NCBI GenBank assembly: GCA_003576845.1
Contig: QEVJ01000006.1
Span: 1-64,000, forward strand
Direction of reading: 5' to 3'
From: Planctomycetota bacterium
GTDB taxonomy: Bacteria; Planctomycetota; Planctomycetia; Pirellulales; PLA5
Length of the DNA stretch: 64,000 nucleotides
Positions within the stretch are counted from its first letter, which is position 1, and each line of letters begins with the position of its first letter. The translations under genes were made by a program, and so were the position numbers. Below the pieces are notes generated by a model. That model was not told where the DNA came from. It searched no databases and saw only the letters and a program-made list of their open reading frames with translations. Shown here piece by piece: positions 29,337-46,011 of this stretch.

Positions 29337-30767
29337 TCACTCCTTCGGTTCCCTCGCGCCGTCCGCGGAAAGCCGCTTCCACCAATCGGGGCCTTCGGCC
29401 TCGACGGCGGCGCTGTGTTTCACCAGTTGCGCGCGCAACTCGGCAAATCGCCGCGGGTCCTTCTCCTTGAGATCCGTCGATTCTTTCGGGTCGTCCTTGA
29501 GATTGTACAGCTCGAACTCGGTCAGCTCGGCATTGGCTAGGATTTTCCAATCGCCGACGCGCATGGCGATCTTGGCGTTCGGCGCCATGTGCAGCCGCCA
29601 GTACAACGGCATCGTGCGCTCGACGCGCGTCGCCTTGCCCGCGAGCACATCGAGCACGTTCACGCCGTCGAGCGTGCGGTCGGCGGGCGGCTTCACTCCC
29701 GCCGCGGCGAGCATCGTCGGAAACACGTCGCTGCCGACGATCGGCACGTCGCAGGTCTTCCCCGGCGGGATTCTGCCGGGCCAGCGGGCGATGCCGGGCA
29801 CGCGAATCCCGCCTTCGTGTAGGTCGCGCTTTCTTCCCCGCAAGCCGCCGGTCGAACCCCGGCCCGGCGTTTTCACTCCGTCGCCTTCTGGTCCGTTGTC
29901 GGACGTAAAAACCACGAACGTGTCGTCGGCGAGCTTTTCCTCGTCGAGCGTCCGCATGAGCTTGCCGAATGCCGCGTCCATCTGTGTGACGTTCGCGAAG
30001 TACTCCCGCTCGACGTCGTCCTTCGCGTCCGGATAGCGGGCCTTGAACTTCGGGTCCGACTTGATCGGATAATGCGGCTCGTGCGTCCACACGGCCAGAA
30101 AAAAGGGCTTCGTCTTGTCGCGGCGGTTCTTGAGCCAGGCAATCGCCTCGTCCGCCACCAGCGCCGCGGAATAGCCTTCCATCGGACCCACACGCTTGCC
30201 GTTGCGGGCAAAGTTCCGCGGGTTCTCGTGCGACGGCGCCGCGTTATTCTGCGTCGCCAGCCACCAGTCGTAGCCGTGATCGCCGGGCTGCGGCTGGGCC
30301 GGATTGTTGAACAGGCCGTTCAAGTGCCACTTTCCGCTGTGGCACGTCGCATAGCCCGCGTCGCGCAGCAACCTGGGCAGCGTCACCTCGCTCGTCCGCA
30401 GATGCACCGGCGAGCCCTGTGCGATCCACGTATACACGCCGTTGCGGTGCGGCGTCCGTCCCGTGAGCAGCGCCGACCGCGACGGACTGCACACGCCGCT
30501 CGCCGCGTAACATTGCGTCAGGCGCACGCCCTGCTTTGCGAAGGCGTCCAAATGCGGCGTCTGGATCGCGGGATGACCGTAGAATCCCAAGTCGCCGTAG
30601 CCTAAATCGTCGGCCAGGAAGAGCACGAGGTTGGGCCTGCGGGCCTCGACCGCACGCGCGTCGCCGGCGCCCGCGAGTAGGAACGCCAACGTCGCCGCCG
30701 CGGCGAAAACGCCCGTCGCGATCGCCCATCGAGAACCGCGTGTTCCTTCTGCGGTCGAGAACTGCAT
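29337..30767 (-). CDS. Exported arylsulfatase-type sulfatase
   Basis: A 476-residue sulfatase that removes sulfate esters, probably from sulfated polysaccharide. It has a signal peptide (FAAAATLAFLLAGAGDARA), metal Asps in LFLADDLGYGD, and the formylglycine site Cys93 in GVCSPSRSALLTGR, so a formylglycine-generating enzyme must act on it. Further: HSGKWHL, HEPHYPI and VFTSDNGPEGDG. ATG 30767 is chosen because GGGAG lies upstream and a signal peptide follows; an in-frame ATG at 30887 is created by an inverted repeat and would add 40 residues of repeat-encoded sequence. Confidence 0.92.
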   Translation of the reverse strand: MQFSTAEGTRGSRWAIATGVFAAAATLAFLLAGAGDARAVEARRPNLVLFLADDLGYGDLGFYGHPAIQTPHLDAFAKQGVRLTQCYAASGVCSPSRSALLTGRTPHRNGVYTWIAQGSPVHLRTSEVTLPRLLRDAGYATCHSGKWHLNGLFNNPAQPQPGDHGYDWWLATQNNAAPSHENPRNFARNGKRVGPMEGYSAALVADEAIAWLKNRRDKTKPFFLAVWTHEPHYPIKSDPKFKARYPDAKDDVEREYFANVTQMDAAFGKLMRTLDEEKLADDTFVVFTSDNGPEGDGVKTPGRGSTGGLRGRKRDLHEGGIRVPGIARWPGRIPPGKTCDVPIVGSDVFPTMLAAAGVKPPADRTLDGVNVLDVLAGKATRVERTMPLYWRLHMAPNAKIAMRVGDWKILANAELTEFELYNLKDDPKESTDLKEKDPRRFAELRAQLVKHSAAVEAEGPDWWKRLSADGAREPKE

Positions 30768-30794
30768 GGAAATTGCTCCCAGATGGACCGCAAA

Positions 30795-30888
30795 GATGAA
30801 CCGCAAAGGCGCAGAGACGCAGAGACGGTACCGATCGAACGCGTTTCTTCTGAGAATTCTCTGCGTCTCTGCGCCTTTGCGGTTCATC
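30795..30888. repeat. Inverted repeat family A, copy 2 (perfect 31-nt arms)
   Basis: Arms 30795-30825 and 30858-30888 are exact reverse complements of 31 nt around a 32-nt loop. The arm reads GATGAACCGCAAAGGCGCAG and onward. It lies just upstream of the sulfatase and carries an in-frame ATG on the minus strand. Confidence 0.9.
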
Positions 30889-32958: not shown

Positions 32959-34749
32959 GTGTTCGACCTAAGAAACGCCCTAATTCTCGTCGGATTCTCC
33001 TGCTTGACCCCGCTGTTGGCCGGGGGGTGTGCCGATTCTCAAACGCCGGACGGCTCGGATTCCGCCCCGTCGTTTTCGCTCGATGCTCGAACGGCGGACC
33101 CGATAGCCGGCCCCAAGCTGTTCGTCGACGCGACGGGCGAGCTGGGAATCGACTGCGTGCACGATCCCGGCTTCTCGGGCGCTCCTTACGCCATGCCCCG
33201 GATCGTAGGTAGCGGCGGCGGCGTGCTCGATTTCGACAACGACGGGCGGCTCGACCTCTACCTGTTGCAAAACGGCGGCGACGCGAGCAAATCCACGAGC
33301 CGGCTCTATCGCCAGGATGACACCGGCAAGTTCGTCGACGTGAGCGCCGGTTCCGGACTCGACCTCAAGGTGCAAGGGATGGGCTTCGCCGCGGGCGACG
33401 TGGATAACGACGGCCGCGTCGACGTCCTCATCACCGAGTACGGCCGCTCCCGCCTGTTCCTCAACCAAAGCGACGGCGCCAAGCCCAAATTCGTCGCAGC
33501 GAGCGACGCGGGCATCGAAAACCGCATGTGGGGCACTTCCTGCTGTTTCGTCGACTACGACCGCGACGGTTGGCTCGATATCGTCCTGGTCAACTACGTC
33601 GACTACGACCCGTCGCGATGGTGCGCCGATGCTCGGGGGCGACAGGAATTTTGCGGGCCGGATAACTTTCCGGGGCGCGTGACGAAGCTGTTTCGCAACC
33701 TGAGCGGCCGAGCGACGAACCACAAGCCGATTCGCTTCGAGGACGTCACGGTCGCCGCGGGCCTGGCCACGCATCCCGGTCCGGGCTTGGGCGTGTTCTG
33801 CGCCGACTTCAGCGGCGATCGCTGGCCCGACATCTTCGTCGCCAACGACGGCAAGCCCAACCACCTTTGGATCAACCAGAAAGACGGCACGTTCAAGGAA
33901 GAAGGGCTACTCAGCGGCATCTCGACGAACGCGATGGGCAAGGCCGAAGCCAACATGGGCATCGCCGTCGGCGACGTCGACGGAAACGGCTTGTTCGACG
34001 TGTTCGTCACGCATCTGACCAGCGAAACGCACACGATGTGGATGCAGGACACGCGGGGGTTCTTTCAAGATCGCACCGTGGCCGCCGGCGTGACCGCCGC
34101 GTGGCGCGGAACGGGCTTCGGCACGATCATGGCCGACTTCGACAACAACGGCGCGGTCGATCTCGCGCTCGTCAACGGCAAAGTCGAACGCGGCGAGAGC
34201 GGACCGGACGCGCCGACGAAGCTCGACGCCTTCTGGTCGCCGTATGCCGAGCGGAATCAAGTCCTTCTCAACGACGGCCGCGGCGGGCTACGCGACGTTT
34301 CGGCGGCGAACGCGCCATTTTCCGGACTTGCCGCCGTGTCGCGGGGGCTAATTTGTGCCGATCTCGACAATGACGGCGGGCTCGACCTCGTCGTTACCCG
34401 CATCGCCCAGGGCGTGGCCGTTTATCGCAACGTGGCGCCGAATCGCGGGCATTGGCTCCGCGTGCGGGCGGTCGACCCGGCACTCCATCGCGACGCCTAC
34501 GGCGCGGAGATTCACCTCCGCGTCGGCGAGCGCAAGCAGATGAGTTGGATCAATCCCGGGTATAGTTACTTATGCAGCAACGACCCGCGAGCGCATTTCG
34601 GTCTCGGCGCGGCGGAACGCTACGACGCGCTTACCATCATCTGGCCGGATGGCGTCGAAGAATCGTTCCCCGGCGGCGCGGCCGACCGCGAAGTCGTCCT
34701 GCGGCGCGGCGAAGGTCAACTCGTCCAACCGGCGGCGGGTGCGCGATGA
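32959..34749 (+). CDS. CRTAC1-family lipoprotein (FG-GAP/VCBS repeats, ASPIC/UnbV)
   Basis: A 596-residue protein. GTG 32959 begins a lipoprotein signal (ALILVGFSCLTPLLAGGC, lipid Cys24); starting further upstream would place the repeat arm in the protein and bury the signal. The body is a beta-propeller of VCBS/FG-GAP repeats with calcium loops (LDFDNDGRLDLYLL, GDVDNDGRVDVLI, DYDRDGWLDIVLV, ADLDNDGGLDLVV). It ends in an ASPIC/UnbV domain (NRGHWLRVRAV, YSYLCSNDPRAHFGLG, IIWPDGVEESFPGG). Its last codons overlap the start of the following TPR gene (ATGA), so the two are translationally coupled and probably work together at the membrane. The molecular function of the family in bacteria is unknown. 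Confidence 0.88.
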   Translation: MFDLRNALILVGFSCLTPLLAGGCADSQTPDGSDSAPSFSLDARTADPIAGPKLFVDATGELGIDCVHDPGFSGAPYAMPRIVGSGGGVLDFDNDGRLDLYLLQNGGDASKSTSRLYRQDDTGKFVDVSAGSGLDLKVQGMGFAAGDVDNDGRVDVLITEYGRSRLFLNQSDGAKPKFVAASDAGIENRMWGTSCCFVDYDRDGWLDIVLVNYVDYDPSRWCADARGRQEFCGPDNFPGRVTKLFRNLSGRATNHKPIRFEDVTVAAGLATHPGPGLGVFCADFSGDRWPDIFVANDGKPNHLWINQKDGTFKEEGLLSGISTNAMGKAEANMGIAVGDVDGNGLFDVFVTHLTSETHTMWMQDTRGFFQDRTVAAGVTAAWRGTGFGTIMADFDNNGAVDLALVNGKVERGESGPDAPTKLDAFWSPYAERNQVLLNDGRGGLRDVSAANAPFSGLAAVSRGLICADLDNDGGLDLVVTRIAQGVAVYRNVAPNRGHWLRVRAVDPALHRDAYGAEIHLRVGERKQMSWINPGYSYLCSNDPRAHFGLGAAERYDALTIIWPDGVEESFPGGAADREVVLRRGEGQLVQPAAGAR

Positions 34750-34835
34750 ACCGCAAAGCAGCAAAGACGCAAAGACGTTCCGTAAGCGACATTCATAAGT
34801 GCCGTCTTTGCTCCTTTGCGCCATTGCGGTTGATT
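34745..34835. repeat. Inverted repeat family A, copy 3, overlapping a gene start
   Basis: Imperfect arms from 34745 and 34803-34835 (about 25 of 33 matching) of the GATGAACCGCAAAG type. Its ATGA provides both the stop of the CRTAC1 gene and the start of the TPR gene. Confidence 0.75.
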
Positions 34836-36323
34836 TCCACCCGCTCGGGCGCGATCCTGGCGGTGCTGGTGCTCGCCGCGTCGGGTTGCGGCAGGCCCGT
34901 TTCGCGGGAAGCGGCGTACGAGCCTCTGGCGCTCTCGCTGAAGCACGCGGACATGCTCGGCGACCCGCCTGCCCCGCCGAAGCTCGATTTCGTCGACGTC
35001 GACCGGGCCGTGGTCGCGGCGATTCAAAGGGCGGAGGAGGGCGTTCGCAAGAATCCGGATTCGGCGGATGCCTGGGGCAAGCTGGGGATGGTCCTGCTGG
35101 CTCACGAATTCGACGAGGCGGCCGCGGCGTGCTTGGCGCAGACGGAAATCTTGCAGCCGGACGAGCCGCGCTGGCCGTTTTTGCAGGGCATGGCGGTCCT
35201 TCGTTGGCGGCCGGGCGACGCCGTGCCGCTGTTGGAACGGGCCGTGAAACGGTTGCCGCCGCTCGGGACCTCCGCCGCGACCGAATCGGCGTCGCTGTCG
35301 GAAGCGCAGAAGGCCGCGGGCGCGAGCGCCATTCGCTTGCGACTCTTCGAGTTGTACGTGGAACTCGACCGGCCGAAGGACGCCGAAGCGCCGCTGCGGC
35401 AGTTTCTCAAGACCGATCCCGAAAACGGCCGCGCCCACCTGATCGCGGCGCGGATCGCGCTTCGCGGCGGGCGTTTGGAAGAATGTCTCCGCGAGGTGGA
35501 ACTCGCCGGATACGCACGGCCCGCGCAAAAACCGGTTCACGAATTGAGGGCCGAAGCCTTTAGCCGCCAAGGGCGCAAGACCGATGCGGAAGCCGAACGC
35601 CGCATGGCCGCGGGCGTCGCCCAAGTCGCCTGGCCGGGACCCTACGACGACGATCTCGATAGCCTGCGAACGGGACTCAAGGTCGCCCTCAGCCGGGCCG
35701 ACCGCTACTACGTCAACGGCAAGCCGCAAGCATCGATTGACGTGCTCAACGACGTGGTTAAGGAGTATCCCGAGTCCGAATGGGCGTGGATTCTCCTCGG
35801 CCGCGCGCAGATCAAGCTCCGGCGGCTCGACGAGGCCCAGGCGTCGCTCGAAAAGGCATTGGCGATCTCGCCGAAATCGGCCGACGCGCTGTTTCGTATG
35901 GGCGTCGTCCACTTCGTCCGCGGCGAGTATGCCGAAGCGGCCGAGTGGTATCGCAAGGTGATCGAACAGAAGGCCGATCACCCCGTGGCGCTCTACAACC
36001 TCGGGCAATGCGCTCGCCACCTTAAGCAACCCGACGTCGCGGCCGATTACTTTCGCCAGGCGATCGCCTGCGCCCCCGATAACTTCGAGCTGCTGTTCGC
36101 TCTCGGCGCCTTGCTCGCGGACGAAGGAAAGACCGAAGAAGGCCGCCGGTACCTCGAACAAGCCAAGAAACTCAGTCCGCGCGACCCGAGAGTGCTCGAG
36201 CGGCTCTACGAACTGGACCGGCGCGGCGCGAAGGGCGAGGAAGGTGAATCTCGACCGACCGACGGGACTCACGAACCGCGTCCTGCGGGCACTTCTACGC
36301 CGCAAGCCAGGCCGGCGGATTGA
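34746..36323 (+). CDS. TPR-repeat lipoprotein coupled to CRTAC1
   Basis: A 525-residue protein. From ATG 34746 (overlapping the CRTAC1 stop) the first 28 residues are encoded by an inverted repeat. A TTG at 34830 would start a more ordinary lipoprotein signal: SGAILAVLVLAASGC, lipid Cys48 (Cys20 from TTG). The rest is TPR helices: NPDSADAWGKLGMVLL, ENGRAHLIAARIALRGG, SEWAWILLGRAQIKLRR, SADALFRMGVVHFVRGEYAE, HPVALYNLGQCARHLKQPD and NFELLFALGALLADEGK. It is a likely scaffold partner of the adjacent FG-GAP protein. It converges with the next CRTAC1 gene, 53 bases away. Confidence 0.88.
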   Translation: MNRKAAKTQRRSVSDIHKCRLCSFAPLRLISTRSGAILAVLVLAASGCGRPVSREAAYEPLALSLKHADMLGDPPAPPKLDFVDVDRAVVAAIQRAEEGVRKNPDSADAWGKLGMVLLAHEFDEAAAACLAQTEILQPDEPRWPFLQGMAVLRWRPGDAVPLLERAVKRLPPLGTSAATESASLSEAQKAAGASAIRLRLFELYVELDRPKDAEAPLRQFLKTDPENGRAHLIAARIALRGGRLEECLREVELAGYARPAQKPVHELRAEAFSRQGRKTDAEAERRMAAGVAQVAWPGPYDDDLDSLRTGLKVALSRADRYYVNGKPQASIDVLNDVVKEYPESEWAWILLGRAQIKLRRLDEAQASLEKALAISPKSADALFRMGVVHFVRGEYAEAAEWYRKVIEQKADHPVALYNLGQCARHLKQPDVAADYFRQAIACAPDNFELLFALGALLADEGKTEEGRRYLEQAKKLSPRDPRVLERLYELDRRGAKGEEGESRPTDGTHEPRPAGTSTPQARPAD

Positions 36324-36376: not shown

Positions 36377-38257
36377 TCACTCGCCCTCGCGCACCGTCGT
36401 CGTGCCGTCGAGGTTCCACTTCGGCACGTCTTGCTTTGTGCCGTCGGGCCACACGACGCGAACCGATTCGACCATTGGCGACTTGCCGAGTCCAACGGTG
36501 ACCGGCAATTCCACCTGCGACAAGTAGCTGCGCGTCGGCATGACCTGATGGGCATAAGTCCTGCCGCCGCGGCGGACTTCGATCCAGGCCCCGATGGCGT
36601 CGCGATTGCTCTTCGTGCCGACGAGCTTGAACCGCAGCCAATGCCGGCCGAGCTGCTGGTCGTTCCTCAACAACAGCGGACGGCCGGCGATTTGCGTCAG
36701 CACCACGTCGAGGTCGCCGTCGCCGTCGATATCGGCATACGCCGCGCCGCGCCCAACGATCGGCTCGAACAGGTCCGCGCCCGCGGCGGATTTATCGACG
36801 GACACCAACTCGGTCGCGCTCGCCGCTCCGGCATTCCAAAACAATCGGGCGCTCTGGCGATAGCGTTGGCTCGATTGGACCTTCTCGATTTCTTCTTCGA
36901 GATGACCGTTGGCCGAGAGCACGTCGAGCCGGCCGTCGAGGTCGTAGTCGAAGAAAAACGTGCCGAACGAAAGGTCGAGCCGCGTGGGCGGGCCGAAGCC
37001 GGTCGCCACCGCTTCGTCGGTAAACGCGAGCGCGGGCTTGGGGGCTACGAATAGGGCCGACATTTCATTGGCGAAGTTGCCGATCGCCACGCCGAGCGCG
37101 TCGTCGCCCCGATAGCGAGCCGCGTCGATGCCCATCGCTCCGCGGGCGTTGCCCGAGCTATCGAACCCGATGCTCGCCGTGGCGCCGCATTCGACGAACG
37201 TGCCGTTGTGCTGGTTGTGGAACAAGAAGTTCTGCACGGTGTCGTTGGCGACGAAGACGTCGATCCACCCGTCGCGGTCGACGTCGGCGAAGGTGAGGCC
37301 GAGACTCTTGCCGACCGGAACGCCGGTGGCGCGGTTGACGACCCGAACGCCGGCCGCCGCGGAAACGTCGCTAAACTTCCCGTTGCCGTCGTTGCGGAAG
37401 AGGACCGGCTGAGAGCCCGCGAAGCTCAGCGGCGGTCCGTATGCCCGGCCGATGCCGGTGAGCTTGAACGATTGCGCGAGGTCGATTTCGCGCGACCAGG
37501 CGACGTAGTTGCAGACGAACAAGTCGAGATCGCCGTCGTTGTCGTAGTCGAAGAAGCCGCAACTGGTGCTCCAGGCGTCGTCGGCGCCGGCGACACCCGC
37601 TGCCTTCGTCACATCTTCGAAGCGGCCGTTGCCGAGATTGCGAAACAAATGATTCAGCCCGACAGCGGAGAGATACACGTCGACGAAGCCGTCGTTGTCG
37701 TAATCGCCCACGGTCACGCCCATGCCGTAGCAAGTGACGGCCAGGCCGGACTCGGCGGATATGTCCGCGAACTTACCGTTGCCGTCGTTGCGATAAAGCG
37801 CCGCCGTGGGCGGCGTCGCCGACTTCGCGGACTCGTCCCACGGCCAGTAACACGAGTTGACCAGGAGCAAGTCCTGGTCGCCGTCGTTGTCGTAGTCGAA
37901 GAACGCGCAGCCTCCGCCCATCGTCTCGGGCAGGAGCTTTTCGCCTTTGGCGCCGTTGACGTGCGTGAAGGCGATGCCGGCTTCGGCAGCAATGTTCTTG
38001 AACGCAACCGGTTCGATCGCCGATCGATCGACGACGCGCGCCGCGGCCGGTGTCGATTCCGACTGCCGAATTTCCGATGGTTTCTCCCCGCGCCGCTGCC
38101 ACCAAACGGCCGCCGCGACCAACGCCGCGATGGCGAGAATCACAAGCAGCGAACGGCGAAACGCGCGGCCGATCACCGCGTCGTCGGCCGCGTCTTCGGG
38201 ATCGGGCATTGTGGGCGGCGGCGGTGAGGATGCCGCGGGCTGATTCAAGTCGCTCAC
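36377..38257 (-). CDS. Membrane-anchored CRTAC1-family protein (FG-GAP, ASPIC/UnbV)
   Basis: A 626-residue protein with a short cytoplasmic tail, one transmembrane helix (LLVILAIAALVAAAVWW, about residues 37-53), then VCBS/FG-GAP repeats (FFDYDNDGDQDLLLV, GDYDNDGFVDVYL, FFDYDNDGDLDLFV, ADVDRDGWIDVFVAND, DIDGDGDLDVVLT) and a C-terminal ASPIC/UnbV domain (GRHWLRFKLVGTKSNRDAIG, VRVVWPDGTKQDV). The start GTG overlaps the stop of the upstream cytochrome gene (GTGA), which shows translational coupling. It is homologous to the lipoprotein at 32959 but anchored differently. It probably lies in the periplasm next to the multihaem protein. Confidence 0.9.
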   Translation of the reverse strand: MSDLNQPAASSPPPPTMPDPEDAADDAVIGRAFRRSLLVILAIAALVAAAVWWQRRGEKPSEIRQSESTPAAARVVDRSAIEPVAFKNIAAEAGIAFTHVNGAKGEKLLPETMGGGCAFFDYDNDGDQDLLLVNSCYWPWDESAKSATPPTAALYRNDGNGKFADISAESGLAVTCYGMGVTVGDYDNDGFVDVYLSAVGLNHLFRNLGNGRFEDVTKAAGVAGADDAWSTSCGFFDYDNDGDLDLFVCNYVAWSREIDLAQSFKLTGIGRAYGPPLSFAGSQPVLFRNDGNGKFSDVSAAAGVRVVNRATGVPVGKSLGLTFADVDRDGWIDVFVANDTVQNFLFHNQHNGTFVECGATASIGFDSSGNARGAMGIDAARYRGDDALGVAIGNFANEMSALFVAPKPALAFTDEAVATGFGPPTRLDLSFGTFFFDYDLDGRLDVLSANGHLEEEIEKVQSSQRYRQSARLFWNAGAASATELVSVDKSAAGADLFEPIVGRGAAYADIDGDGDLDVVLTQIAGRPLLLRNDQQLGRHWLRFKLVGTKSNRDAIGAWIEVRRGGRTYAHQVMPTRSYLSQVELPVTVGLGKSPMVESVRVVWPDGTKQDVPKWNLDGTTTVREGE

Positions 38258-41196
38258 CGGCCACCTCCCGCATCCACGCTTGCATTAGCGCCGGCGGCAT
38301 CGCTCGCTTGCGCGTTCGTTCGCACTTTGGCATCTTTGTCCGCGACGGTCGTCGGTCCCAATCCCGGAGCGCCCGACCGGTGAAGCGAGTAGATCACGAC
38401 CTTTTCCGCCGCGCGATCTGCCGCCGGATAACGCTTCCGCGCTTTGGCAATTGCCGAATCGCGTGCATTGTCGTCCAGCTTGTAGCGCTCGTGATATGCG
38501 GCGTGTTCGGCCGACCGCTTTTCATCGCCAAGCGCCCGATAGAGCAGCGACAAGTTGTAGTGAGCCGTTACGTTCTCCGAATCGAGCTTAAGGGTCTTCT
38601 CGAACTGCGCGGCCGCTTCGCGCAAAAGCGCCTCGCGTTCGGAGGCACTTGCCGGATCGCGTTCGAGCATCTTGGCCCGATCGAAGAGCGTTTCGCCGAG
38701 CAGGTTGATGACGTCGTAATCGAGGCTAAAGTCGTAGCCCCGCTCGATCATCACCGGGGTGCGGTCTTCGAGCACACTGCGGAAGTTTTTCTCTGCCTCG
38801 GCCAAATGGCCCTGTTGGCGATTCACGAGGCCCGAGAGCCAGGCGACGGTCCACGGCGGCGCGGGCGGATCGGCCTTCGCGGCCCGCTCCAGGGCCTCGA
38901 CGGCGCGGTCCAAGTCGCCCTCGGCGTAGTGCACACGGCCCAAATTCAACGCGCCGTCGTACCTCGCGAGCTTTTCCACCTCCGCGAATGCTTCGCCGGC
39001 CTGCCGCAATTCGGCCGGACCTTTGAGCAGCAGCCCGATGCCGTAGTCGTTCCAGCGTTCCCACATGGGCGTCGCCGGCGCGGGAGCGTCGTCGACAACG
39101 CCTTCGCCGGAGCCTTCGGGAGCGATCCGAAACTCGATGCGGTCCGCGGCAATCGTCGTAATCGGCAGATCGTTTTTGTACGGCTCGCCGCGCTTGTGGC
39201 CGCGAATCGGCACGTCGTTCGGCTTCGCCGCCGTCGTCACGAACTCCATGTACCGCGCGTCGAACTTGCGGTATTGCAGCTTCACCTCGACCGACAAAGC
39301 GCCGGCGGCGTCGGCAGGCACGTCGAGTCCGAGATGCAACGTCGCCGCCGCCCCTGGCGGAATCTGATTGTTATAGAGCGGCACGAAAATGTCCTGCGGA
39401 TTCCGGCGGTCGATGCGGTTTCCTTCGCGGTCGAGCATGAACACGTTGACGAAGTGCGTCCACGGATCGACGGTGCTGCTCTGGTCGAGCGCGCCGAGCC
39501 GGCCGACGACGCGGTCGCCGTTCTTCACCGTCACGTCGAGCCAAACTTCGTTCGAGTCGACCGTGCCTTGCGTGAACGGGTGCCCCAGCTTGAGCGTGCG
39601 GAGCACGACATCGAGCAAATACTTCTTGCCGGGATGGACCGCGGGAACGCGCGGCCGCAGCGGCGCGGTCAAGCGGCCGTCGATGTCGCCGCCCTCGCGC
39701 AGACCAAAAATGTCGGCCCGCAGCGTGCCCTTGAGGAACTCCTCGTGGGCCTTGACGACCTCGGGTTTGTCGCGCAAGTGAGCGATGCCGGTATTGGCGG
39801 CCGGAAACAAATGGTTGTGGACCGACAACTCCTTCGCGTCGTCGAAATACTTCGCCCCGAAGTCCCTTGACTCGGCCAGCGGCATGTGGCACGCGGCGCA
39901 GTTGTCCTTGGTCTTCGGCGGGTAGTAGAACGCGCTGGCCCGATGCCCCGACACGCCGGACAGCAGATACGTGTCGTAATGGTTTTGGCCGCGGACGAAC
40001 TTGTAGTCGTTGAGGGCTTCCGGCAAATGCACCTTGTGGCACGTCGAGCAGAACTCCGCCGTGCGGTGGAACGGCTTCAAGAAGGTCTTCTTGTGGAATT
40101 CCGGTTTCGCTTTGACCATCTGCTTGTTGATCCACAGCAGCGCCGGATTGTCGCTGAACGCGAACGGGTAGTGGAGCGGCTCTTCGATCGTAAAGTCGGC
40201 GTTGCCGCGGGTCGAGTTGACGTTGGTGATTGCGTGGCAAACGGTGCAGGTGATCCCCTGATGCGCCGTCGGGTCGGCCACGTCGTCGTAGTGCGGATCG
40301 TCGAACGCTCCGCTGAAAAACGGCACCGGATCGTGGCAACCCGCGCACCAGCGGGCCCGCTTCACGTCGCCCTGTTTCTTCTGCGAGAACTCGCGCGTTT
40401 CGCGGACGCTGGCGAGATAGGCCGGATTGTTGAACGAGCTGAAGCGATGCACGCTGTCCGACCATTGGGCGTGGACATCGGCGTGACATTCCTTGCAATA
40501 GGCGTCGTTCATGAGCGCAGCGGCCGGAATGAAGTCGCCGGTCGACGTGCGGGCGAGCGACGGTTGGAAATATCGTTCGCCCTCGCTCGGGCCGACCGCA
40601 AACCAGGCCCGCGGGTCGGTGCGATGCGAGACGAGCATCACGGCACACGCGACGCCCACGACGCCGGCATACGCAAACCCGACGCGCCATTTGATCCTCG
40701 GCCCGGCGAGACGATGCAGCCAGTAAAGCCAGCCCACCGCCAGCGGCGAGAGGATATGGAGCCAGTAGACGATCGCCCGTGCGGCCGGCTCGCGAAGCTG
40801 CAACAGCGCCGAGTCGCCCAGCCGCATCAACAGCACGCCGGAGAGGAGCAGCACGAGCGACGCGGCGAGCAAGGCATATCCGGCCCGCAGAGCGCGGCGA
40901 TTCTTGCGTCTGCGGGTGTTGTAGACGTGTACTCCCGCAAATACGACGAACGGCCCGATGAGCAACAAACCGAGCGCGAGGTGCGCGAGGAACATGTACT
41001 GATAGAAGTAGTTCTGGTACGTTTCTCCGGCGAGCGCTTCGAGCACGGTCACGCTCAACAGATAAACGCTGTTCGCCGACAGCAACGCGACGAGAATCAA
41101 CACGGCGGTCAGCAGCCACCGTAACCGCGGCCCAACGGCGGGAATGTACTTGGCTCGTGGTTTCGCGACTGCAGGACTTTCGACGACGGACGCCAT
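38254..41196 (-). CDS. Multihaem c-type cytochrome with five TM helices and C-terminal TPRs
   Basis: A 980-residue fusion. Residues 26-190 contain five hydrophobic helices with His residues (AHLALG, GVHVYN, WLHILSP, WLHRLAG) that could ligate b-type haem. Then five CXXCH haem-c sites follow: CKECH 234, CAGCH 284, CTVCH 317, CSTCH 383 and CAACH 433, in a cytochrome c554-like layout with extra His. A beta-rich middle follows, then TPRs from about residue 730 (ALNLGRVHYAEGDLDRAVEAL, VTAHYNLSLLYRALGDEKRS). ATG 41196 is chosen; starting at 41352 would add 52 unlikely residues. It overlaps the CRTAC1 gene start. It could move electrons between the quinone pool and periplasmic partners. Confidence 0.87.
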   Translation of the reverse strand: MASVVESPAVAKPRAKYIPAVGPRLRWLLTAVLILVALLSANSVYLLSVTVLEALAGETYQNYFYQYMFLAHLALGLLLIGPFVVFAGVHVYNTRRRKNRRALRAGYALLAASLVLLLSGVLLMRLGDSALLQLREPAARAIVYWLHILSPLAVGWLYWLHRLAGPRIKWRVGFAYAGVVGVACAVMLVSHRTDPRAWFAVGPSEGERYFQPSLARTSTGDFIPAAALMNDAYCKECHADVHAQWSDSVHRFSSFNNPAYLASVRETREFSQKKQGDVKRARWCAGCHDPVPFFSGAFDDPHYDDVADPTAHQGITCTVCHAITNVNSTRGNADFTIEEPLHYPFAFSDNPALLWINKQMVKAKPEFHKKTFLKPFHRTAEFCSTCHKVHLPEALNDYKFVRGQNHYDTYLLSGVSGHRASAFYYPPKTKDNCAACHMPLAESRDFGAKYFDDAKELSVHNHLFPAANTGIAHLRDKPEVVKAHEEFLKGTLRADIFGLREGGDIDGRLTAPLRPRVPAVHPGKKYLLDVVLRTLKLGHPFTQGTVDSNEVWLDVTVKNGDRVVGRLGALDQSSTVDPWTHFVNVFMLDREGNRIDRRNPQDIFVPLYNNQIPPGAAATLHLGLDVPADAAGALSVEVKLQYRKFDARYMEFVTTAAKPNDVPIRGHKRGEPYKNDLPITTIAADRIEFRIAPEGSGEGVVDDAPAPATPMWERWNDYGIGLLLKGPAELRQAGEAFAEVEKLARYDGALNLGRVHYAEGDLDRAVEALERAAKADPPAPPWTVAWLSGLVNRQQGHLAEAEKNFRSVLEDRTPVMIERGYDFSLDYDVINLLGETLFDRAKMLERDPASASEREALLREAAAQFEKTLKLDSENVTAHYNLSLLYRALGDEKRSAEHAAYHERYKLDDNARDSAIAKARKRYPAADRAAEKVVIYSLHRSGAPGLGPTTVADKDAKVRTNAQASDAAGANASVDAGGGR

Positions 41197-41301
41197 AGAC
41201 TGGCCTTTGGGAAATGACGGCTCCGTCCGCGAAAGAGAGGAGTTCGGCGCGTCCCGCGTCCGGGCGGAACACCGCGCCGTCAAGGAAACCTTGAGTTTTT
41301 C

Positions 41302-41311
41302 TAGTATACTA
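41302..41311. promoter_or_regulatory. AT-rich palindrome in the divergent promoter region
   Basis: TAGTATACTA is the only AT-rich island in the 158-bp gap between the divergent cytochrome (minus) and nitrilase (plus) genes. It contains TATACT on both strands and so could serve as a -10 element either way. No matching -35 box is clear. Confidence 0.35.
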
Positions 41312-41354
41312 TCGCCGTACCGCATATCCATCGCCGCCGCGATGCATTTCATCC

Positions 41355-42386
41355 ATGCCCGACCGCTATTACGCCGCTGCCTGCCAGTTCGACCTGCCCA
41401 ACCCGACCTCGCGCGACCAGATCGCCGAGCGGGTCAGCCGGGTGCTCGCCGTCGTGGAACAGGCGGTGCAAGGCTACGCACCGTTTTTCGACGTGCGGTT
41501 GCTGGCATTTCCGGAGTTCACGCATGCCGCGCCGATCTACGCGACCGCGGCGGAAATCGCCGACCGGCTCGCCGTGCCGATTCCGAACGAGCACACCGAT
41601 CGCTACGCGGCCAAGGCCCGCAAGTTGGGTGTGTTTATCCAGACCGGCACGTTCCTGGAGATCGACGCCCGCTGGCCCGGGCACGTGTTCAACACGACCT
41701 GTCTCATCGGACCCGACGGCTTGCTTTCGCGCTATCGCAAAGTACATCCGTGGGTGCCGTGGGAAGTGCATACCAGCCCGCACGACCTGCCGGGCTACGA
41801 CGAGCCGTTGTTCCCGGTCACGGAAACGGAGATCGGCCGCTTGGGCGCGGCGATTTGTTACGACTGGCTGTTCCCGGAGGCGATCCGGCAACTCGGCCTG
41901 GCCGGGGCGGAGGTGTTGATCCGCGTTTCCGCCTACATGGACCCCTGGGGCACCGCCGCGCCGCTCGACTGGTGGACGCTCGCCAATCGGATGCGGGCGA
42001 TCGAGAATATGGCGTATGTCGTGGCCGCCAATCAGGCCGCCAGCCGCGAGCACTATCCGCCGTTCAGTTGGCCCGGCGGGAGCATGATCGTCGACTTCGA
42101 CGGCCGGATTCTCGCGCAGGCCGATCCCGGGCCGGTCGAGAAGTTCTTGGTGGGGCCGATCGACCTTGCGGCGCTGCGGCACGAGCGCGAACGGCGGCGA
42201 GGGCACCATCTGCTGGCCCACTTGCGCACGGAAACCTATGCCGCGTATCGCCACGCCCTCTACCCCGCTGGAACTGCCCGGAGCACACCTCCGACGGCCG
42301 AATCGAACGTAAACGCGCATGCGGCGGCGAAAGCGGCGTTGGCAAGTCTCCAAACGAAACGCGATTGGGATTCGCGGTCAATATGA
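41355..42386 (+). CDS. Carbon-nitrogen hydrolase (nitrilase superfamily)
   Basis: A 343-residue cytoplasmic amidohydrolase. The Glu-Lys-Cys catalytic triad is intact: LAFPEF (Glu54), SRYRKVHPW (Lys129) and GAAICYDWLFPE (Cys168). NRMRAIENMAYVVAANQA and GGSMIVDFDGRILAQA are the usual C-terminal blocks. It would hydrolyse an amide, carbamoyl or nitrile bond; substrate unknown. The last 40 residues are Ala/Ser-rich and extend beyond the usual family end. It is followed after 40 bases by the large TPR/FG-GAP gene on the same strand, so the two may be co-transcribed. Confidence 0.9.
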   Translation: MPDRYYAAACQFDLPNPTSRDQIAERVSRVLAVVEQAVQGYAPFFDVRLLAFPEFTHAAPIYATAAEIADRLAVPIPNEHTDRYAAKARKLGVFIQTGTFLEIDARWPGHVFNTTCLIGPDGLLSRYRKVHPWVPWEVHTSPHDLPGYDEPLFPVTETEIGRLGAAICYDWLFPEAIRQLGLAGAEVLIRVSAYMDPWGTAAPLDWWTLANRMRAIENMAYVVAANQAASREHYPPFSWPGGSMIVDFDGRILAQADPGPVEKFLVGPIDLAALRHERERRRGHHLLAHLRTETYAAYRHALYPAGTARSTPPTAESNVNAHAAAKAALASLQTKRDWDSRSI

Positions 42387-42426
42387 CGACGGTGTTGCTC
42401 GGTAGGATCGGACAAGGACACATGCG

Positions 42427-45400
42427 ATGATACGGCGAACTCGCACTCGCAATCGCAGATCGGCTTGGCTCGTGTGCACGCGGCTCTCGTATGCACTGAT
42501 CGTGCTCGCCACCGCGGCATCCTGCACGCGCAAGCCTGAGCCAGAACCCGAGGGCACGAACGCGGGTCCGGCGAAAAGTAAGAGGGCGACGACGTTCGAC
42601 GAGTATACCGCCGAGCGTAACCGCGCCGCGGCGCTCATGGGGCAGTACGAATACGCAAAGGCGGTCGAGATCTACGACGCGCTGGCCACGCAAGAGTTTG
42701 CCGGCGGCGACCACGAAACCGATCGGGCGATCGCCACCCTCAACCGCCAGCAGCCGGGTGACACGCGACGCGCCCTCGATATCCTGCAAAAGGTGATTGG
42801 CGACGCAAACGTAACATGGTCCCCGATACGCGCCCGCTATTGTGCCGGTCTGTTGCTGATCTACGAACGCCGGACCGACGAAGCGATCGAGCACTTGCGC
42901 TATGTGACCGAGAACGATCCCAACGACGGTTATGCGGCGTGCTGGCTGGGCCAGTGCCTGCTCGCGACCGGCAAAATCGAAGAGGCGGGAAAAGAATATC
43001 GCCGCGCGGTCGAGGTCGATCCTTACCTACGCAGTGGGTATTACGGGCTCGCCCAAGTGTTGCAGAGGCAAGGCAAACGGGACGACGCGCAGAAGGTGCT
43101 CGACGTGTTCGAGCGGCTCAAGGACAACCCGCAGGCGCGGCTGGCGGATTTCAAGTACATGCGGATGGGACCGAAGGCGGAGATTCGGCCCGTCGATACG
43201 ATTTCGCAGATTCGGGGCCAGGAGATTCCAGAGGTTCGGCCGCAGGGACGGATTTTCGCCGAGCCGACGGCATTGCCGCTCGTTGCGCCGCTCGCGGCGC
43301 CGTGGCAATGGTCTGATGCGGCAGCACGGCCCGCCGGCCACGATGCCGGCAAGCCCGATTCGCGGCGTGTGTGCCCGAGCATTACCGTTTGCGACATCAA
43401 CGGCGACGGCAAACTCGATCTGTTTGCCGCGGCCGCGCTCGTCCGCGACGGGCAAACGGCTAATGCCATTTTGCTGGCCGAGGGCGACAAGTTCCGCATC
43501 GACACCGGCCAGCCGCTCGCGGCGGTGTCCGATGTGCGGGCCGCACTGTGGGGCGATTACGACAACGACGGCCGCATGGACGTTTATCTCTGCCGCCGCG
43601 GACCGAACCCGCTTTGGCGGCAAGACGCCGTCGGCAAATGGAGCGACGTCACTGAGGCGACGAAGACGGCGAGCGGCGACCACGACACGGTCGACGGCAT
43701 GATGTTCGACGCCGATCACGACGGCGACCTTGACCTCTTCGTTGTCAACGCCGACGGGCCGAACGAGCTGTTGAGCAACAACCTCGACGGAACGTTTCGC
43801 CCGATCGCAGCCGAGCAAGGCATCGCCGGAGACGGACGCCCCTCGCGTCAGGTCATCGCAGCGGACCTGGACAACGACCGCGATCTCGATCTCATCGTGC
43901 TGCACGACGAACCGCCGCACGACGTGTTCCTCAATGATCGGCTGTGGAACTATCGCCTGGCCGACAACTGGCAGGAATTGTGCAAGACGCCGATTCAGAC
44001 GGCGCTTGCCTTGCATAGCAGCACGAAATCTCCGTGGAGATTCAGGCCCGGCGCCGGAATGCTCAGCGACTTATATGGGCACCACGAGGTCGACGGCAGC
44101 GCGCTGGATCGCGTGGAGGTATTGACCGCAGCCGGCGGTACGTTGCGTCGTTGGATGAGCGAGCGCGAAGGAGTTAGGTGGATCGGCGATTCGGATTTGC
44201 GCGGCGGCGATGCAAACGTCCCGGTCCCCGATGTCAGAAAAAGTGTCGACTTATCGTGGGCCGTCGCCGATGTCGTGGGCGTCGGCGAATACCATGTAAT
44301 CGCACGCCACGACGGCAGCGCCGGCATTTGGTCGGCCACCCTCGATGCACCGGACTCTATGGAGAAGCTCGACGGCCTCGCCGAATGTTGGGCGCTGTGC
44401 AACTTCGACGTCGCCACCGGCCCCGCCATCGTCGATTTACCGCCTGGACAACCGCCGCGGATTTGGCGGCCTGGGCCGGGGCGGTTTCCCTTCGTTGGCC
44501 TCACGCTCAGCGGACACGACAAGAAATCGGATCAAATGCGAAGCAACGCCTCGGGAATCGGTGCGGCGCTCTCCGTGCGCATCGGCCGACATTGGACGGC
44601 CGTCGACGCGATCCGAACTTCGACCGCGCCCGGCCAAAGCCTGCAACCGCTGGCCATCGGCACGCGCGGCGCGAAACGGATCGATTTCGTCAACATCACG
44701 TGGCCCGACGGCGTGTATCAGACGGAAATGGACCTCGAAGCGGGCAAGCTTCACCGTATCGAAGAAATTCAGCGGCAATTGTCGAGTTGCCCGGTGCTGT
44801 TTGCGTGGAACGGTCGCGAGTTTGCGTTCGTGACCGACCTGCTCGGCGTGGGCGGATTGGGCTTCAATATCGGTCGCGGCGAATATGCGACGCCGCGCCC
44901 ATGGGAGAACCTGCTGTTGCCGGCGGGCGTGCTTACTCCGCTTGATGGCCGCCACGTGCTGAAGCTTGGCGAACCAATGGAAGAGGTCTGTTATCTCGAT
45001 GCGCTCAGGCTGGTGGCGTACGACCTGCCGCCGGGTTGGAACGTGACGCTCGACGAGCGCTTCGGCGAAACGCCGCCGATGCCGACCGGCCGAGCGTTGT
45101 TCTATCGCCGCTCGTTGGAGCCGGCGCGTGCCATGGACACGCGCGGTGCGGACGTAACGGAGCTTCTTCGCCGCGTCGATCGCCGTGCCGTCTCACCCGG
45201 CGAACCGGATCGGCGATTTCTCGGCCGGACGCAGCCGCATCGCGTCACAATCGAATTCGCCGAACCGCTCGACGCGACCGATGGCGAACCGGTGCTTATC
45301 CTCGACGGCTGGATCGAATACCCGTACTCGCAAACGATGTTCGCCGCGTGGCAAGCGGGCGCGGCATACGAATCGGCGACGCTCGAAGCCCGCGGCGACG

Positions 45401-46011
45401 ACGGCGCGTGGCACGTCGTTCACGAGCGATTTGGGTATCCGGCCGGGATGCCGCGGGAAATGGCGTTGCCGATCGACAAAACAAGGCTACCGCGAGGCAC
45501 GACGGCGTTGCGGCTCTCTGCAAACGTCGAAGTGTATTGGGACGCCGCGCGGGTTGCATTCGCCGAGCCGTGCCAGCAAGCCAGGCGAACCGAATTGCCA
45601 CTGGCTTCGGCGCGGCTGAGCGCGGTCGGCTTTCCCCGGCGCACGACGCATGCCCAGCGACGCCCGCGTTACGATTATGCTCACCGCACGCCGGCTTGGG
45701 ACACGCGGCACGCGGCGGGCACGTACACGTCGTTCGGACCAGTCGAGCCGCTGTTGGCCGACGTCGACGACGCCGTGGCGATCTTCGGCCCCGGCGAAGA
45801 GGTTCATGCCGAGTTCGCTGCGCAGGAACTGCCACTTGCCGAGGGCTGGTCGCGCCGCCACGTCCTCGAATCGCACGGTTGGTGCAAAGACATGGACCTC
45901 TTCACTCGCGACGGCGAAACGGTCGAACCGCTGCCGCGGCGCGATCCCGACCTACCGCCGAGCAAAAAAACCGACGCGCTGCACCGCGAGTTCAACACTC
46001 GTGCGCATTAG
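42427..46011 (+). CDS. Large TPR + FG-GAP + ASPIC/UnbV fusion lipoprotein
   Basis: A 1194-residue protein combining in one chain what the two neighbouring loci encode as separate genes. A lipoprotein signal (ALIVLATAASC, lipid Cys33) is followed by TPRs (residues about 60-240: YEYAKAVEIYDALATQ, DGYAACWLGQCLLATGK, RSGYYGLAQVLQRQGKRDDA) and VCBS/FG-GAP repeats (about 315-500: CDINGDGKLDLFAA, GDYDNDGRMDVYL, DADHDGDLDLFVV). An ASPIC/UnbV-like block (IGAALSVRIGRHW, VNITWPDGVYQTEMD) lies near 690-770. The last 420 residues (from NGREFAFVTDLLGVGGLG) form a beta-rich region of no recognised family. AAGGA precedes the ATG. Confidence 0.85.
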   Translation: MIRRTRTRNRRSAWLVCTRLSYALIVLATAASCTRKPEPEPEGTNAGPAKSKRATTFDEYTAERNRAAALMGQYEYAKAVEIYDALATQEFAGGDHETDRAIATLNRQQPGDTRRALDILQKVIGDANVTWSPIRARYCAGLLLIYERRTDEAIEHLRYVTENDPNDGYAACWLGQCLLATGKIEEAGKEYRRAVEVDPYLRSGYYGLAQVLQRQGKRDDAQKVLDVFERLKDNPQARLADFKYMRMGPKAEIRPVDTISQIRGQEIPEVRPQGRIFAEPTALPLVAPLAAPWQWSDAAARPAGHDAGKPDSRRVCPSITVCDINGDGKLDLFAAAALVRDGQTANAILLAEGDKFRIDTGQPLAAVSDVRAALWGDYDNDGRMDVYLCRRGPNPLWRQDAVGKWSDVTEATKTASGDHDTVDGMMFDADHDGDLDLFVVNADGPNELLSNNLDGTFRPIAAEQGIAGDGRPSRQVIAADLDNDRDLDLIVLHDEPPHDVFLNDRLWNYRLADNWQELCKTPIQTALALHSSTKSPWRFRPGAGMLSDLYGHHEVDGSALDRVEVLTAAGGTLRRWMSEREGVRWIGDSDLRGGDANVPVPDVRKSVDLSWAVADVVGVGEYHVIARHDGSAGIWSATLDAPDSMEKLDGLAECWALCNFDVATGPAIVDLPPGQPPRIWRPGPGRFPFVGLTLSGHDKKSDQMRSNASGIGAALSVRIGRHWTAVDAIRTSTAPGQSLQPLAIGTRGAKRIDFVNITWPDGVYQTEMDLEAGKLHRIEEIQRQLSSCPVLFAWNGREFAFVTDLLGVGGLGFNIGRGEYATPRPWENLLLPAGVLTPLDGRHVLKLGEPMEEVCYLDALRLVAYDLPPGWNVTLDERFGETPPMPTGRALFYRRSLEPARAMDTRGADVTELLRRVDRRAVSPGEPDRRFLGRTQPHRVTIEFAEPLDATDGEPVLILDGWIEYPYSQTMFAAWQAGAAYESATLEARGDDGAWHVVHERFGYPAGMPREMALPIDKTRLPRGTTALRLSANVEVYWDAARVAFAEPCQQARRTELPLASARLSAVGFPRRTTHAQRRPRYDYAHRTPAWDTRHAAGTYTSFGPVEPLLADVDDAVAIFGPGEEVHAEFAAQELPLAEGWSRRHVLESHGWCKDMDLFTRDGETVEPLPRRDPDLPPSKKTDALHREFNTRAH

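Follow-up and report, generated by a model that had tools for sequence, protein, structure and literature searches.

The planctomycete DNA analysed here, a stretch of 64,000 nucleotides (the window), carries a membrane cytochrome gene (D) and, directly downstream, a propeller gene (C). We consider it probable that these two encode a conserved membrane-anchored redox complex, with D as a quinone-linked di-haem b/penta-haem c protein, C as its CRTAC1 partner, and a big lipoprotein (E) and the products of two neighbouring genes (A and B) as accessories. The adjacency of D and C, their co-occurrence across genomes, the folds of their domains and the conservation of candidate haem ligands were observed directly, and it is very likely that the two proteins work together in a redox complex.

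All five genes claimed in a preliminary description of this DNA are real (Table 1), with codon-position GC like that of the other genes of the window, and the GTGA overlap joining D to C was confirmed. A carbon-nitrogen hydrolase gene, absent from that description, separates D from E. In Pfam searches, A and C each matched FG-GAP_3 (3.5e-40 and 1.6e-34) and a C-terminal UnbV_ASPIC domain (4.4e-18 and 2.2e-17), all above cut-off, while B matched TPR families, including TPR_19 at 8e-33, and D matched TPR_16 (1.4e-9) and Cytochrome_C554 (1.6e-6). The 1194-residue lipoprotein E had been described as a fusion of TPR and FG-GAP/UnbV parts. Its FG-GAP (FG-GAP_3, 5e-24) and TPR (TPR_2, 2.8e-10) regions hold up, and its UnbV match is borderline, at 21.4 bits against a cut-off of 23.4 in Pfam and 26.8 bits in a genome scan.

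Table 1. Genes, domains and other features of the locus, in window coordinates or protein residues.
Feature	Position	Strand	Description
A	32959..34749	+	FG-GAP/UnbV lipoprotein; accessory
Inverted-repeat element	34746..34834	none	At the A/B junction; carries ATGA
B	34830..36323	+	TPR lipoprotein; start probably TTG 34830, not ATG 34746
C	36377..38257	-	FG-GAP/UnbV propeller resembling CRTAC1; signal anchor at the N terminus; overlaps D (GTGA)
D	38254..41196	-	980-residue membrane protein: five TM helices, penta-haem c, Ig-like, C-terminal TPRs
D, residues 711-930	38407..39066	-	TPR superhelix; missing in some relatives
D, residues 490-700	39097..39729	-	All-beta Ig-like region; included in 5ze8 match
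D, residues 224-480	39757..40527	-	Penta-haem c domain; five CXXCH; 5ze8 fold match
D, CXXCH motifs	40483-40497, 40333-40347, 40234-40248, 40036-40050, 39886-39900	-	Motif scan
D, residues 23-191	40624..41130	-	Membrane domain; five TM helices, N-in/C-out
Carbon-nitrogen hydrolase	41355..42386	+	Oriented divergently to D; neighbourhood conserved at 7 other loci
E	42427..46011	+	Lipoprotein: TPR, FG-GAP propeller, weak UnbV, conserved beta-rich C-terminal domain
E, TPR region	about residues 57-232	+	Pfam
E, C-terminal beta-rich domain	about residues 790-1170	+	Strongly conserved

The membrane domain of D is di-haem-b-like. According to the D family profile it has five TM segments, whose loops follow the positive-inside rule and so place the haem domain outside. 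The second helix (residues 63-94) carries H72 and H90 and the fourth (137-163) H147 and H161, so that two His stand on each of two TM helices and on both sides of the membrane, in a b561-like manner. These four residues are invariant in 44 of 44 near relatives and in every distant relative aligned, and no other polar residue of this domain is conserved in a divergent D set. Their spacing, 18 for H72-H90 and 14 for H147-H161, would suit two bis-His b haems, one on each side of the membrane. Profile searches with the TM regions of relatives gave weak matches to DUF4405 in 9 of 14 (best 1.6e-5) and to the b561-type family Ni_hydr_CYTB in 6 of 14 (best 1e-4); in scans of whole proteins the latter scored 19.3 and 20.7, below the cut-off of 30.1. 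A PDB search with the D TM profile matched no solved di-haem b protein, and no quinone-site motif was identified in D.

Beyond the membrane, D continues as a multihaem cytochrome. The earlier characterisation of it as a five-CXXCH membrane cytochrome ending in TPRs was borne out by motif counts, Pfam and the TM profile. Eight CXXCH matches occur in the window, five of them in D, against 2.2 expected, and none of 100 shuffles reached eight. The haem Cys/Cys/His columns are kept in nearly all D relatives, with the five c-type motifs gathered in one domain, and His 250, 368, 462 and 539, candidate distal ligands for four of the five c haems, are invariant. We also noted that, of the D relatives at L179-L198, the TPR-less ones examined closely have a CX4CH first haem motif (CGTSGCH-like) instead of CXXCH. 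In the predicted model of D (pLDDT 84, pTM 0.81), residues 224-689 matched the c552 structure 5ze8 at rank 1 in a second structure aligner (Z 16.0, rmsd 3.5, 337 residues), while the Foldseek matches shown for whole D were TPR chains and the sequence match to 5ze8 was weak (4e-4). The penta-haem and Ig-like part is thereby placed close to the PHC family, to which ExtKL, GSU2801 and the cable-bacteria cytochromes belong. Against the ExtKL model NF040886, D reached 3e-4 and 19.3 bits, with a curated cut-off of 250; by sequence it is at most a relative of ExtKL and not ExtKL itself. The connection to redox chemistry proposed at the outset is strengthened by this fold together with the di-haem-b-like membrane domain.

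The pairing of D with a directly downstream C is a well-supported conserved unit. Among 119 genomes of the class, with C counted at an E-value of about 1e-98 or better, D is present in 72, C in 73 and E in 75; all three occur together in 69 and are jointly absent from 42, so that E shares the presence/absence profile of D and C. Pairwise Fisher tests gave 5e-24 to 1e-27, values that ignore phylogeny. One genus (g4) and three families (f2, f3 and f6) each contain genomes with all three genes and genomes with none, which indicates that joint gain or loss occurred repeatedly. Of the 74 D matches in these genomes, 65 have, by their coordinates, an adjoining C match, always downstream and on the same strand. 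Re-reading of individual loci gave the same picture: C lies directly 3' of D on the same strand at 45 of 50 loci, and at 58 of the 71 loci with room among 80 taken from GTDB genome contigs, leaving 5 and 13 loci, respectively, with no C downstream. Short overlaps of 4 or 1 bp between the genes occur 22 times in the first set and 21 times in the second. In the GTDB scan, D relatives turned up in at least 569 contig stretches, many from metagenome assemblies; by record titles, the 80 kept come mainly from planctomycetes and Verrucomicrobia, plus an Acidobacteriota MAG. Relatives of Rhodopirellula and Gimesia are among the titles of the scan.

Larger versions of the cluster were also seen. All six genes of the window recur in a MAG with the unchecked title Betaproteobacteria (L158), in the order hydrolase-E-D-C with convergent B-A, where E and A are 43-44% and 40-41% identical to their window counterparts. 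Another locus (L067) has C-D-hydrolase-E oriented as in the window. At L045, L046 and L077 the TPR, FG-GAP, D, C and E genes are co-directional, with a hydrolase on the opposite strand between D and C at L077. Two further loci (L102:2924-14812 and L134:756-14945) have a seven-CXXCH cytochrome near an FG-GAP gene, followed by E, a small ORF of about 290 aa, D and C; in L102 the heptahaem cytochrome has weak TPR matches, and the small ORF encodes an NHL-propeller.

The propeller proteins resemble a known fold. The C profile matched solved CRTAC1 (9etn_A) at 1.6e-28, and C has DxDxDG loops of the calcium-binding type. Most search matches of E cover its C-terminal domain, from about residue 790. 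The E model (pLDDT 62, pTM 0.53, from 10 sequences) is too poor to judge how the TPR and propeller parts pack together; the Foldseek matches shown for it were mainly CRTAC1, TPR chains and integrins, and its propeller resembles the CRTAC1 structure. Elsewhere we observed proteins of about 1270 residues with two tandem FG-GAP/UnbV units (L005:3208-7065 and L006:814-4587). At L010:6304-10272 and L008:8503-11661, an FG-GAP ORF is followed by an ORF in which UnbV is fused to an AhpC/TSA redoxin, with TPR as well in L010; these predicted fusions, at two places in the genome, are another link between UnbV and redox proteins.

A and B had been presented as a pair coupled by an ATGA overlap. We regard this coupling as doubtful, since the ATGA is part of an inverted-repeat element and B probably starts further downstream. 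The overlap lies in the left arm (34746-34777; right arm 34803-34834) of a degenerate copy of the perfect inverted repeat at 30795-30888, which has 31-bp arms, and an overlap within such a decayed repeat was rejected as proof of coupling. Six places in the genome match the core of the element exactly, and both arms of the perfect element together make up one of them. Translated from ATG 34746, B begins with translated repeat, and from the in-frame TTG at 34830 (LISTRSGAILAVLVLAASGC) it begins with a clean lipoprotein signal, making the TTG the more plausible start. The first ATG of a sulfatase-type ORF (29337-30887) also falls inside the perfect element, and for this reason its start is probably mis-set too.

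The preliminary description drew from the recurrence of TPR and FG-GAP parts a conserved physical partnership between them. If these were the true partners, D-C would belong to a periplasmic scaffold recognising a ligand, and they do recur together in A-B, in D-C, in E and at the co-directional loci described above, with the L102 heptahaem cytochrome as a further case near an FG-GAP gene. We nevertheless regard this as very unlikely. Distant D relatives in the phylum come in two forms, TPR-bearing and TPR-less, the latter comprising 17 genes without a TPR profile match, seven of which were also scanned with Pfam and likewise lack TPR. CRTAC1 lies downstream, within distance limits, in 10 of the 15 TPR-less relatives with room and, by the same strict rule, in 7 of 14 TPR-bearing ones; at two more TPR-less loci (L183 and L187) it is the next gene, with predicted reading frames beyond the limits. 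Because TPR-less relatives keep this neighbour, CRTAC1 tracks the core made of the membrane and penta-haem domains, to which TPRs are an optional addition, and the idea that FG-GAP needs TPR as its partner was rejected. This genome is rich in both repeats (107 TPR_16 matches and 13 UnbV genes), and most of its other UnbV genes have no TPR_16 neighbour, in a test within this one genome that had too few genes, and was too strongly affected by those of the window, to be relied on. The partnership thus stands for D with CRTAC1 and falls for TPR with FG-GAP. One may also suppose that the pairing is real for D-C alone, and that E, A, B and the hydrolase happen to lie nearby and share nothing beyond lineage bias. 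Planctomycetes are rich in UnbV genes, the hydrolase is present in a minority of loci, and E lies within 9 kb of D at just 12 of 50 and 13 of 71 loci. We think this rather unlikely, as E co-occurs with D-C even at a distance and the six genes come together again in the Betaproteobacteria-titled MAG.

The main rival to an electron-transfer role is a catalytic one. D might be an enzyme of the nitrogen or sulfur cycle that reduces or oxidises hydroxylamine, nitrite, NO or a similar small molecule at an open penta-haem site, and CRTAC1 would then have a structural role, as next to genes resembling hydrazine synthase. Beyond the window's clade the distal ligand of the fifth haem varies, H406 being replaced by E, D or Q in relatives, which may leave one c haem open. 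An open haem has been proposed for PHC proteins as well, and those of cable bacteria have been classed as potentially catalytic, with a penta-coordinate haem (PMC11976967). Within the window's own clade, however, conserved His 377, 406, 460 and 621 could fill the fifth site. A paralogous pair in this genome, D2-C2, directly adjoins an HZS-alpha-domain protein with three CXXCH motifs (L004:6091-14838, G000:C62), and a 2025 article reports CRTAC1 genes that lie between homologues of HZS alpha and of HZS beta-gamma (PMC12758564). HZS was rejected as a general neighbour of D-C, since most D-C loci have no HZS-like gene beside them; HZS-alpha domains occur in 27 of the 119 genomes, mostly away from D-C, and seven of the nine matches in this genome are in C48 and C227. 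Catalysis alone would also leave the di-haem-b-like membrane domain unexplained, and both roles could hold. A catalytic D seems to us fairly unlikely.

In the electron-transfer reading that we prefer, the five-helix domain of D probably binds two b haems, with H72 and H147 as ligands on the periplasmic side and H90 and H161 on the cytoplasmic side, and would exchange electrons with the quinone pool. The periplasmic penta-haem c and Ig-like domain, of the PHC/ExtKL/c552 fold, would then pass electrons to a periplasmic or outer partner, a direction that we infer. C would be made together with D and sit on its membrane and penta-haem core, which it would always accompany, and the TPRs of D and the lipoproteins E, A and B may be accessory docking parts added in a lineage-dependent manner. 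More tentatively, D-C may represent a widespread and undescribed quinone-linked respiratory complex, in which one chain unites a di-haem domain of b561 type with a penta-haem domain of PHC type, a CRTAC1 propeller is the subunit beside it, and optional TPR/propeller lipoproteins reach further out. If true, this would give a function to a bacterial branch of the CRTAC1/UnbV family, for whose proteins the literature searched offered no settled bacterial function, and would provide extracytoplasmic electron transfer with a new point of entry at the inner membrane, in planctomycetes and, going by record titles, in Verrucomicrobia and Acidobacteria. It would also mean that an unnamed electron-transfer module recurs throughout the GTDB contig stretches counted above. 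Through its strict tie to a membrane cytochrome of quinone type, one CRTAC1/UnbV branch has a function that can be tested directly, and this tie may explain why CRTAC1 genes also flank hydrazine-synthase-like genes.

Each domain of this system is known, and it is the combination of a di-haem-b-like domain, a PHC penta-haem domain, TPRs and a CRTAC1 partner that seems undescribed; a limited literature search did not find it in open-access papers, and the porin-cytochrome cluster of He et al. 2017 (PMC5615132) is different from D-C. In the HZS-alpha/beta-gamma clusters, a CRTAC1 gene stands beside haem proteins, as in D2-C2, whereas the window locus has no HZS subunit and the section of that article consulted does not describe D (PMC12758564). 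Quinol oxidases of the CbcL/MtoC/MtrH type unite a membrane b-haem and a multihaem c part in one chain (PMC6295460). D is like them in joining predicted membrane His ligands for b haem to multihaem c, a resemblance of layout only, and adds TPRs and a CRTAC1 partner. Proteins of the PHC family, namely Thermochromatium tepidum c552 (5ze8), Geobacter ExtKL, GSU2801 and the sPHC and lPHC of cable bacteria, have five c haems and an Ig-like part, as D does, and those of PMC11976967 are described with a signal peptide, Ig-like and truncated haemoglobin parts; in D a membrane domain of five helices precedes this part and TPRs follow it, and CRTAC1 is a partner. C, for its part, shares the FG-GAP propeller and UnbV domain of the human cartilage protein CRTAC1 (cartilage acidic protein 1, 9etn), and differs in its anchor to a bacterial membrane and its genetic link with a cytochrome.
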